Source of the DNA: Streptomyces sp. NBC_01235
Lineage (GTDB): Bacteria; Actinomycetota; Actinomycetes; Streptomycetales; Streptomycetaceae
NCBI RefSeq assembly: GCF_035989285.1
Contig: NZ_CP108513.1
Span: 5,270,001-5,334,000, forward strand
Direction: 5' to 3'
Length of the DNA: 64,000 nucleotides
Shown here: positions 4,739 to 49,450 of the stretch, in pieces
Position numbering within the stretch: the stretch's first letter is position 1
Layout: every line of letters begins with the position of its first letter
Notes under the pieces: model-generated
What the model saw: only the letters and a program-made list of their open reading frames with translations
What the model was told of the DNA's origin: nothing
Databases searched by the model: none
Made by a program: the position numbers and the translations under genes

Positions 4739-5269
4739 ATGATGGACGACATGCGGATCACGATCAGAGAAGGCGGACCCGACGACATCCCCGTGATACT
4801 CGGCATGCTCGACAGCAGTGTCGAGTGGCTGGTCTCACAGGGGCGCACCAGGCAGTGGGGCACGGAGCCCCTGTCGGAACACACGAAGACGGTGGAGTCG
4901 GTCGCCCGGTACATGGACAAGGGTGACGTGTACATCGCCGAGGCCGACGGCGTGCCGGCCGCCACGCTCACCCTCACCGACGCGCCCGGCGCCTACCTCG
5001 CCCATCTCCCGCCGCCCGGCGAGCCCGAGCGGTACATCCACTGGCTCGCCTCCGACCGCCGCTTCAAGGGCCACGGCGTGGGCAGCGCCCTGCTGGCGCA
5101 CGCCGCCGAGGTGACCCGGAAGGCGGGCGTCTCCCTGCTCCGGGTGGACTGCTACGCGGGCGACGACGGCAAGCTCGTCGCCTACTACGAGAGCAACGGC
5201 TTCACCCCGATGGAGACGTACACCGCGAACGGCGACTGGCCGGGGCAGGTGCTGGCCCGGAGGGTGTGA
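4739..5269 (+). CDS. GNAT-family N-acetyltransferase
   Basis: A 176-residue acetyl-CoA-dependent transferase. The start at ATG 4739 follows GGAAG by 6 nt; the in-frame ATGs at 4742 and 4751 are alternatives. The N-terminal beta-alpha unit (ITIREGGPDDIPVILGMLDS) and the acetyl-CoA pyrophosphate loop (RRFKGHGVGSALLAHA, Q/RxxGxG/A form, near 101-116) are clear. The closing LLRVDCYAG..LVAYYESNGF is the usual GNAT motif B. The substrate is unknown. It is divergent from thpR and probably monocistronic; a low-complexity stretch follows. Confidence 0.88.
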   Translation: MMDDMRITIREGGPDDIPVILGMLDSSVEWLVSQGRTRQWGTEPLSEHTKTVESVARYMDKGDVYIAEADGVPAATLTLTDAPGAYLAHLPPPGEPERYIHWLASDRRFKGHGVGSALLAHAAEVTRKAGVSLLRVDCYAGDDGKLVAYYESNGFTPMETYTANGDWPGQVLARRV

Positions 5270-5309
5270 CTCGCGGGCGGTGCAGTGCGCGGGCGGCTGC
5301 AGCGGCTTG

Positions 5310-5396
5310 CACGGGTGCGGCACGGCACGGCACGGCGTGGCGTGGCGTGGCACGGACGCGACACAGGGTGGCGCGGCACGGCGTGGCACGAGTGGG
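5310..5396. repeat. Low-complexity GGCAC/GGCGT pentamer run
   Basis: A degenerate run of 5-nt words (GGCAC, GGCGT) repeated several times between the acetyltransferase and the convergent MFS gene. The 5270-5491 gap holds no convincing gene. The short words suggest slippage-generated sequence. Confidence 0.6.
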
Positions 5397-44793: not shown

Positions 44794-46764
<1,971 letters not shown>

Positions 46765-46971
46765 TCAGCCGGTCGCGAGACGGACCATGTCCGCCTGCGG
46801 CCCCTTCTGGCCCTGCGAGATCTCGAAATCGACCCGCTGACCCTCTTCCAGGGTGCGGTAGCCGTCCATCTGAATCGCGCTGTAGTGGACGAAAACATCC
46901 GCACCACCGTCGACCGCGATGAAGCCGTACCCCTTCTCCGCGTTGAACCACTTGACGGTGCCCTGAGCCAT
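46765..46971 (-). CDS. Cold-shock protein CspA-type
   Basis: A 68-residue single cold-shock domain, an RNA chaperone binding single-stranded RNA or DNA. RNP1 (KGYGFIAVD) and RNP2 ([10 protein letters not shown]) are intact; the N-terminus [17 protein letters not shown] is canonical. It corresponds to the ScoF-type proteins of Streptomyces. An unusually long, less GC-rich upstream region (about 450 bp) with inverted repeats suggests a structured 5' leader, as in E. coli cspA. It is monocistronic with its own hairpin terminator. Confidence 0.95.
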
Positions 46972-47128
46972 GCCTAACTCCCCTATTACTGGCCCTTGCA
47001 CAGATCCACACTTCGCGGATCCGGGTCAGACCTCACCCCCCAGTTTGGTTGGGGGCGTGCGCCGGAACGCGTCGACCGCGGCCGAATGTATCTGTCCAAC
47101 TGCCCTCTGCAACAGGTCACTTGGACGA

Positions 47129-47260: not shown

Positions 47261-47291
47261 AAATAAAAGGCTCCGGATCCGGTGATCCGGA
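47261..47291 (-). terminator. Intrinsic terminator with T-rich tail (minus strand)
   Basis: TCCGGATC-4 nt-GATCCGGA stem followed on the minus strand by TTTTATTT. It is the second barrier after the hairpin at 47327, separating the thrC-like/cysO-like unit from cspA. Confidence 0.7.
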
Positions 47292-47326
47292 CCCGGTTCC
47301 CCAACTGTACCGCGCTCAACCACACT

Positions 47327-47424: not shown

Positions 47425-47700
47425 TCAGCCGCCGGCGACGGCCGGGATGATCGAGACGCCGGCGCCGTCCGGAGTCGCCGTCTCCAGCCCCTGCTCGAAG
47501 CGGACGTCGTCGTCGTTCACGTACACGTTGACGAACCGCCGCAGCTTGCCCTGGTCGTCCAGGACCCGGGCGGCGATCCCGGTGTGGTTCTTCTCCAGAT
47601 CGGAGATGACCTCGCCGAGGGTCCCTCCTTCGGCCGAGACCTCGGCCCGGCCACCGGTATAGGTGCGGAGGATGGTGGGGATGCGGACGGTAACGCTCAT
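47425..47700 (-). CDS. CysO-like sulfur carrier protein (ThiS/MoaD fold)
   Basis: A 91-residue ubiquitin-like protein ending in Gly-Gly (PAVAGG). The C-terminal glycine is adenylated and turned into a thiocarboxylate, the sulfur donor. It closely resembles mycobacterial CysO (TVRIPTILRTYTGG, LGEVISDLEKNHTGIAARV, RFVNVYVNDDDVRF, IIPAVAGG); CysO gives sulfur to the PLP enzyme CysM. It lies downstream of a threonine-synthase-family PLP enzyme that is led by a SAM-I riboswitch, on the same strand, with 117 bp between them holding a GC repeat. No cysM or Mec-type protease is adjacent. A role as sulfur donor to the neighbouring ThrC-like enzyme is an attractive inference. Confidence 0.88.
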   Translation of the reverse strand: MSVTVRIPTILRTYTGGRAEVSAEGGTLGEVISDLEKNHTGIAARVLDDQGKLRRFVNVYVNDDDVRFEQGLETATPDGAGVSIIPAVAGG

Positions 47701-47725
47701 GACTTTCGACCTCCGGTCAGGTGGA

Positions 47726-47804
47726 GCGCCCCGAAGGGGCACGGGGCTGTGTGTATGTGCGGCTCCGCCGCGGGGCGCGAGCAGCCCCCACCGGCCCGCA
47801 GACG
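47726..47804 (+). repeat. Streptomyces-type intergenic repeat, copy 1
   Basis: GC-rich repeat with the core TGCGGCTCCGCCGCGGGGCG followed by CGAGCAGCC and CCCGCAG. It is closely related to the copy inside nagA (55761-55829) and lies between the thrC-like and cysO-like genes. Confidence 0.75.
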
Positions 47805-47817
47805 AAACAACGACCTC

Positions 47818-49098
47818 TTACGCGAGCCCAGCTTCCCGGAAGGACTCGAGGCTGGGCCGGATCGTCGCCGTGAGTCCCGTACCCGCCACCGCGTCCAGGG
47901 TCTTCAGGCCGTCGCCCGTGTTCAGGACGACGGTCGTCCTGGTCGGGTCCAGCAGACCGTTCTCGATCAGCTTGCGCGTCACACCCACCGTCACCCCGCC
48001 GGCGGTCTCCGCGAAGATGCCCTCGGTCCGCGCCAGCAGCTTGATCGCGTCGACGATCTGCTCGTCGTTCACGTCCTCCACCGCACCGCCGGTCCGCCGG
48101 GCGATGTCGAGGACATACGGACCGTCCGCCGGGTTGCCGATCGCCAACGACTTGGCGATGGTGTTCGGCTTCTGGGGGCGCACGACGTCGTGCCCCGCCT
48201 TGTACGCGACGGACACCGGGCTGCACCCCTCCGCCTGGGCGCCGAAGATCTTGTACGGCTTGTCCTCGACGAGCCCGAGCTTGATCAGCTCCTGGAGCCC
48301 CTTGTCGATCTTCGTGAGCTGCGAACCCGAGGCGATGGGCACGACCAGCTGGTCCGGCAGCCGCCAGCCGAGCTGCTCGCAGATCTCGTACGCCAGCGTC
48401 TTCGAACCCTCGGCGTAGTACGGCCGCAGGTTGACGTTGACGAAGCCCCAGCCCTCGCCGGCCGGGTCGCCGATGAGCTCGGAGCAGAAGCGGTTGACGT
48501 CGTCGTAGTTGCCCTCGATGCCGACGAGTTCGCCGCCGTAGATCGCGGCCATGACGACCTTGCCCTGCTCCAGGTCGTGCGGGATGAACACGCAGGAGCG
48601 GAAGCCGGCGCGGGCGGCGGCGGCGCCGACGGCGCCGGCCAGGTTGCCCGTGGAGGAGCAGGAGAGGGTCGTGAAGCCGAAGGCGCGGGCGGCCTCGATG
48701 GCCTGGGCGACGACGCGGTCCTTGAAGGAGTGCGTCGGGTTGCCGGAGTCGTCCTTGACGAAGAGCTTGCCGGCGTCGACGCCCAGCTCGCGGGCGAGGT
48801 TGTCGGCCTGGACGAGCTTGGTCCAGCCCGGGTTGATGTTCGGCTTGTCCGCCACGTCGGCCGGGACGGGCAGGAGGGGCGCGTAGCGCCAGACGTTCGC
48901 GGGGCCCGCCTCGATGCGCTTGCGGAGCTCCTCCGTGTCGTAGGAGGAGAAGTCGTACGCGATCTCGAGCGGGCCGAAACACTCTTCGCAGGCGAAGACC
49001 GGGCCGAGGGGCACGCGGTGACCGCACTCGCGGCAGCTCAGCGCCGCGGCGGGACCGAGGTCGACGGTGGATTCGGTTTCAACAGTCTGCGCAGCCAT
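47818..49098 (-). CDS. thrC: Threonine synthase-family PLP enzyme under a SAM riboswitch
   Basis: A 426-residue fold-type II PLP enzyme. Threonine synthase converts O-phospho-homoserine to threonine. Features are an N-terminal zinc-ribbon-like motif (SCRECGH..FACEECFG, about 21-40), the PLP lysine in DSGNPTHSFKDR (about 117), CSSTGNLAGAVGA, and the PLP-phosphate/C-terminal region TAGGVTVGVTRKL. Two facts make the plain annotation doubtful. It is preceded by a SAM-I riboswitch, a control almost always linked to methionine or sulfur metabolism. It is also followed by a CysO-like thiocarboxylate carrier. From memory, Streptomyces keep another thrC in the hom-thrC-thrB cluster. This copy may use O-phospho-homoserine plus carrier-bound sulfur to make homocysteine (hypothesis). 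Confidence 0.9.
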   Translation of the reverse strand: MAAQTVETESTVDLGPAAALSCRECGHRVPLGPVFACEECFGPLEIAYDFSSYDTEELRKRIEAGPANVWRYAPLLPVPADVADKPNINPGWTKLVQADNLARELGVDAGKLFVKDDSGNPTHSFKDRVVAQAIEAARAFGFTTLSCSSTGNLAGAVGAAAARAGFRSCVFIPHDLEQGKVVMAAIYGGELVGIEGNYDDVNRFCSELIGDPAGEGWGFVNVNLRPYYAEGSKTLAYEICEQLGWRLPDQLVVPIASGSQLTKIDKGLQELIKLGLVEDKPYKIFGAQAEGCSPVSVAYKAGHDVVRPQKPNTIAKSLAIGNPADGPYVLDIARRTGGAVEDVNDEQIVDAIKLLARTEGIFAETAGGVTVGVTRKLIENGLLDPTRTTVVLNTGDGLKTLDAVAGTGLTATIRPSLESFREAGLA

Positions 49099-49118
49099 GT
49101 GAGGCGAGGCCCTTTCTC

Positions 49119-49271
49119 CTCATCTTCCTCACGACGCATCTCGCCGTGAGACGGATTTGGCACCTTCCCAAGCCGGGAGCCTCGCGGAACGATCAACGGT
49201 GATCGGTACGAGACCGGCTGGAGGGTTGCCGGGGCTTCATCGGGCCGTATCCCTCTGCCCCTCTGGATGAG
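49119..49271 (-). promoter_or_regulatory. SAM-I (S-box) riboswitch leader
   Basis: The minus strand shows the conserved S-box core in order: P1 strand CTCATC, then CAGAG, GGCCCGATGAAGCC..GGCAACC, GGGAAGGTGCCAAATCC, a P4 hairpin (CTCACG..CGTGAG), and GAAGATGAG closing P1. The purine-rich ribosome site (GGAGAAAGG) follows at once and the ATG is 20 nt away, so translational control is likely. Confidence 0.95.
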
Positions 49272-49450
49272 CGGTATTCGGTTGTTGAACGGTGAACGCC
49301 GATGACCCCGGACATGCGATGGTCATCCGCGTTGTTCAAGACTGTAACCGAAGGCCAGGACAGTTGAGATAGTCGTCCGAACCGCGAGATGGATCACACG
49401 GTGACCTGCCGTGCACTTGGTGTGATCACGACAGTGAGGAGCCGCTGACC

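Follow-up and report, generated by a model that had tools for sequence, protein, structure and literature searches.

A metM-metO locus behind a SAM-I riboswitch in Streptomyces sp. NBC_01235, a probable carrier-dependent route to homocysteine

The window analyzed here, a 64,000-nt stretch of Streptomyces sp. NBC_01235 (NZ_CP108513.1, positions 5,270,001–5,334,000 of the forward strand), carries on its minus strand a SAM-I riboswitch, a gene for a threonine-synthase-like enzyme (metM), and a gene for a ubiquitin-like sulfur carrier (metO), in that order (47425–49273). We read this locus, with a probability of about 0.92, as a metM-metO operon under the control of the riboswitch, which makes homocysteine from O-phospho-L-homoserine. 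The system is not new, having already appeared in print as MetM/MetO of Streptomyces albulus; the original prediction had deduced the same use of O-phospho-homoserine and carrier sulfur, correctly, but for a route already published.

MetM is described as a homocysteine synthase of Streptomyces strains, converting O-phospho-homoserine to homocysteine (Hasebe et al. 2024, as summarized in PMC12172450), a report which supports the predicted reaction. By the same account, MetM prevents methionine auxotrophy in S. albulus, and a SAM riboswitch lies upstream of its gene (PMC12172450). The locus in the window resembles the S. albulus system in its threonine-synthase-like enzyme, metO carrier gene, upstream SAM riboswitch, and genus, and we found no difference between the two, the comparison being one of description given S. 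albulus was not among the fetched loci. By homology to its S. albulus counterpart, the product of metM is thus a putative homocysteine synthase. The S. albulus study reportedly also places metO directly downstream of metM, and is said to have MetO donating sulfur as a thiocarboxylate and many strains lacking the canonical acyl-homoserine enzymes.

The leader matched the full SAM-I (S-box) aptamer model RF00162 at 49117–49273 on the minus strand (77 bits, E 2.5e-16, model positions 1–108 covered; gathering threshold 44.4). Its P1 helix pairs CTCATC (49271–49266) on the 5′ side with GATGAG (49124–49119) on the 3′ side, and the coordinates originally predicted for the leader, 49119–49271, were right as the P1-to-P1 span, the covariance match being slightly wider (49273–49117). 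A search of the whole genome (11.09 Mb) with RF00162 at E ≤ 0.001, in which 150 of 644 first-look candidates were scored, returned the metM leader as the single match. Between P1 and the start codon lies only a short spacer (49099–49118, minus strand), within which GATGAGGAGAAAGGGCCTC is the same in 74 of 80 named relatives. Given that the aptamer match ends 18 nt from the ATG of metM, that a ribosome-binding-site-like AGAAAGG (49117–49111) starts one base past P1, and that a consensus scan noted no terminator-like site between the aptamer and metM, the control of metM-metO by SAM is likely translational. The leader folded with P1 forced reached −83.3 kcal/mol, against −84.0 kcal/mol for the unconstrained fold, which forms an alternative hairpin, and a gap of only 0.7 kcal/mol means that the switch is not demonstrated by folding alone. 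Relative to shuffled sequences, the leader gave a z of −1.41, with 19 of 200 shuffles equally or more stable.

The first gene behind the leader, metM (47818–49098, minus strand), is an open reading frame of 426 a.a. which scored 223 bits with Pfam PALP and 267.9 bits with the NCBIfam thrC model TIGR00260 (cut-off 167.1). The canonical ThrC encoded elsewhere in the genome also passes TIGR00260 (328.4 bits), and the model therefore does not separate the two proteins. The best PDB matches of MetM are threonine synthases, its scores with ThrC models far exceed those with cysteine synthase models, and its N-terminus bears a zinc-ribbon-like CxxC...CxxC motif. The second gene, metO (47425–47700, minus strand; ATG at 47700, stop codon ending at 47425), encodes a carrier of 91 a.a. 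with the C-terminus AVAGG, assigned via its ThiS/MoaD-type match to Pfam ThiS (59 bits), its best PDB match, and its position beside metM. That PDB match is 3dwg_C, a Mycobacterium tuberculosis protein entered as '9.5 kDa culture filtrate antigen cfp10A' (113.7 bits), which we take to be CysO. RF00162, PALP/TIGR00260, and ThiS thereby confirmed the SAM-I leader, the ThrC-family PLP enzyme, and the 91-a.a. carrier ending in Gly-Gly that had been recognized on one strand from the letters of the window.

The spacer between metM and metO (47701–47817) contains many G+C palindromes (e.g., CCCCTTCGGGGCG), which presumably resemble Streptomyces intergenic repeats. Downstream of metO, the consensus scan marked an intrinsic-terminator-like hairpin (47272–47296, minus strand); the scan gave three sites in the window against 1.1 expected, and such a site alone is no proof of function. 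Genes for a cold-shock protein (46765–46974) and a GroEL-type chaperonin (44797–46425) follow further downstream on the same strand.

The whole trio of SAM-I, metM, and a MetO-like frame on one strand recurs in 80 of 80 named loci (86–96% identical), which rank highest among at least 590 confirmed matches and represent close relatives rather than independent cases. Since order and strand are kept in every one of them, the arrangement is not due to chance. The closest named relatives of MetM are from Streptomyces records and are at most 96% identical, although records very near the source genome were possibly omitted; within the genus, relatives range from 79 to 96% identity. Among the MetO frames of the 80 named relatives, 73 end exactly in Gly-Gly and seven carry one extra residue.

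Across the phylum, 246 genomes were sampled evenly, and 95 of them encode a MetM-type protein at a threshold of ≥371 bits, placed at a gap in the list after the data were seen. This count also takes in one protein whose two parts lie on separate contigs (281 and 254 bits), the match below them scoring 220, and two matches with an in-frame stop (G052 and G036) were kept. A SAM-I riboswitch lies 6–269 nt upstream of the MetM-type match, on the same strand, in at least 57 of the 95, a lower bound given the stricter filters behind the SAM-I matches used (150 in all, from 112 of 125 matching genomes). The remaining 38 genes have no listed SAM-I upstream, and three of these start less than 300 nt from the start of their contig. 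In the eight sampled genomes of the same genus (the source genome counted), SAM-I directly precedes metM in all. A carrier was found in the fetched flank of metM at 28 of the 30 loci examined out of the 95; 20 of these carriers end exactly in Gly-Gly, seven have residues after Gly-Gly, and one (L046) ends in Trp-Gly. The fetched flanks of the other two loci (L032 and L052) showed no carrier, and the L032 genome still has SAM-I upstream of metM.

A second, ordinary thrC had been expected if this enzyme makes homocysteine, and it was found in a hom-thrC-thrB cluster, with flanking genes matching Pfam homoserine dehydrogenase and GHMP kinase, and NCBIfam thrB above its cut-off. Judged by protein families and gene position, this separate cluster probably accounts for the supply of threonine. 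Its ThrC shares with MetM the PLP enzyme family, the presumed substrate, and 37% identity over residues 72–413. We compared 34 MetM-type sequences (the window, 29 from L024–L052, and four of the 80 named loci) with 20 ThrC sequences (the genome's own and 19 fetched, a subset of all found). Over these 54 sequences, 31 positions were near-fixed in each group yet different, including (as ThrC/MetM) T89/L153, S156/N223, N158/R225, R161/Y228, and N189/S257; MetM accordingly lacks the 31 residues near-fixed in ThrC. The motif CxxC-x8-14-CxxC, a candidate metal site, occurs at the N-terminus of 34 of 34 MetM-type proteins and in none of the 20 ThrC proteins. Invariant in both groups are the lysine of SFKDR (K126 in MetM, K62 in ThrC), presumably the PLP lysine, and 40-odd further positions. 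By alignment, T89, S156, R161, and N189 of ThrC correspond to T88, S155, R160, and N188 of Thermus thermophilus, residues which we take to bind the substrate phosphate. If these roles hold, we hypothesize that the MetM pocket is altered where ThrC retains the phosphate for the formation of threonine.

The residues that the two groups have in common, K126 and many others, would also suit a bifunctional enzyme, forming threonine as well as homocysteine from O-phospho-homoserine in proportions that depend on how much thiocarboxylated carrier is available. We regard this as improbable, given that MetM differs at the positions presumed to hold the phosphate in ThrC and that a second threonine synthase would be superfluous beside the canonical one. 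The reading does gain from a Microcystis homologue, 51.6% identical to MetM, for which threonine synthase and deaminase activity is described (PMC12172450). According to the same source, that homologue lies by a sulfur-carrier-family gene resembling S. albulus metO, has no SAM riboswitch, and does not have full MetM function in the cell.

A slightly lower probability still attaches to a plain second threonine synthase under odd SAM control, with the carrier as an unrelated neighbor. Such an enzyme would be expected to score above the TIGR00260 cut-off and to find threonine synthases in the PDB, as MetM does, and in vitro the Microcystis relative reportedly forms threonine (PMC12172450). However, the canonical thrC already occupies the hom-thrC-thrB cluster, the 31 near-fixed positions set MetM apart from ThrC, SAM-I and the carrier are conserved neighbors of metM, and MetM of S. 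albulus has been reported to act as a homocysteine synthase (PMC12172450). The coexistence of the two enzymes also extends through the phylum sample, where 89 of the 95 MetM-type genomes contain a strong ThrC match at E ≤ 1e-100, a cut-off chosen after the data were seen; the best ThrC matches in the other six had E values of 2.8e-88, 1.7e-80, 2.4e-75, 6.1e-53, 1.1e-51, and 7.5e-50.

The genome encodes a second, CysO-like carrier (genome positions 4512104–4512373; positions 5096–5374 of fetched locus L011), which is 60% identical to MetO and adjoins a gene passing the NCBIfam cysKM cut-off (a CysK/M-type cysteine synthase); metO itself has no CysM-type neighbor. The CysO-like carrier ends in Gly-Gly-Met-Ala, and MetO in Gly-Gly, which suggests that the former, unlike MetO, would need trimming before sulfuration. 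One Prok-JAB (JAMM, Mec-like) protein was found in the genome (4519817–4520140), about 7.4 kb from cysO and adjoining neither carrier gene; this one protease may serve both carriers. The suggestion that cysM and mec would accompany another cysO was therefore borne out for the CysK/M-type gene, but not for the protease, which is encoded at a distance. The genome also encodes MoeZ (NCBIfam, 754.6 bits; cut-off 647), the enzyme that sulfurates CysO in mycobacteria (PMC3227635). A second cysteine route, in which MetM takes O-phosphoserine as CysM does with MetO as its carrier, is the least credible of the alternatives, as the 60% identity of the two carriers has against it the separate CysO-CysK/M pair, the far higher scores of MetM with ThrC than with cysteine synthase models, and a SAM sensor ill-suited to cysteine supply.

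Other routes to homocysteine were sought over the whole genome, with control genomes that were positive in the MetX, HTS, and HcyBio searches alike. MetX gave only eight weak matches (best E 2.6e-5), compared to scores above 370 bits in those genomes of the sample (85 of 246) that have MetX; HTS and HcyBio gave no match, with 8 and 3 of the 14 control genomes matched, respectively. The canonical acyl-homoserine enzymes are thus represented in this genome by weak MetX matches and by no HTS. A cystathionine-gamma-synthase-family protein is present (genome positions 7089216–7090334; 679 bits, cut-off 513), and a second homocysteine route via this enzyme is possible on the basis of its family. Approximately 2 kb from its gene, we noted a PALP gene. 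Its assignment as a cystathionine beta-synthase, which would have formed a reverse transsulfuration pair, was considered and dropped, as the matched piece of 220 a.a. fitted the threonine ammonia-lyase models best.

MetX is also found in 22 of the 95 MetM-type genomes, and in three of eight within the same genus, indicating that the MetM route is not always the sole one. MetX was less frequent in MetM-type genomes than in the others (22/95 vs. 63/151; Fisher p 0.0037, kinship ignored), a weak anticorrelation. The MetX threshold of ≥371 bits (with a gap down to 171.5) was set after the data were seen, and no genome among the 246, nor any of the 14 controls, attained the curated cut-off of 500.

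Within the metM-metO operon as we read it, MoeZ would activate the C-terminal Gly-Gly of MetO to a thiocarboxylate. MetM, with PLP, would then eliminate the phosphate of O-phospho-L-homoserine and take up sulfur from the thiocarboxylated MetO to yield homocysteine, a reaction reported by others for S. albulus and assigned here through homology and context. Methionine synthase would convert homocysteine to methionine, the precursor of SAM, and SAM bound to the leader would shut off metM-metO, most probably at translation.

Two known systems use a carrier in a comparable manner. In the CysO-CysM-Mec system of M. tuberculosis, the thiocarboxylate of CysO is the sulfur donor to a PLP enzyme, and the metM-metO locus resembles it in the expected transfer from a carrier thiocarboxylate to a PLP enzyme whose substrate is a phosphorylated amino acid, and in the best PDB match of MetO being the protein of 3dwg. 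It differs in its enzyme of the ThrC branch, its presumed homocysteine product, its SAM control, and the presence of a separate CysO-CysK/M pair. The HcyS-HcyD system of Wolinella succinogenes likewise employs a carrier thiocarboxylate for homocysteine, but with O-acetylhomoserine and a MetY-type enzyme, in place of the ThrC relative and O-phospho-homoserine assigned here.

A further, tentative reading, which we consider possible but doubtful, is that the genome maintains two insulated carrier routes which share a single activating enzyme and a single protease, and that MetM was derived from ThrC. MoeZ would charge both CysO and MetO, and the single JAMM protease would trim CysO and perhaps free adducts from both carriers, MetO being left untrimmed, so that specificity would rest with the two PLP enzymes. 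MetM would have arisen from ThrC by the loss of the residues holding the leaving phosphate, with the intermediate diverted from water to carrier-bound sulfur.

For the metM-metO operon, the published homocysteine route is supported here by sequence and context, and present annotation does not yet reflect it, as NCBIfam still labels MetM, which scores above the model's cut-off, as thrC. In an annotation study of Streptomyces, the table of which gives 22 elements, 21 with RNA-seq support, RF00162 stands before a two-gene transcript of S. lividans (SLIV_16930-SLIV_16925) and is labelled as threonine biosynthesis (PMC8079986). We infer that these two genes are metM and metO. The occurrence of the MetM type in 95 of 246 sampled genomes suggests that it is common in the phylum, which bears on metabolic models and on the prediction of methionine auxotrophy in actinobacteria.
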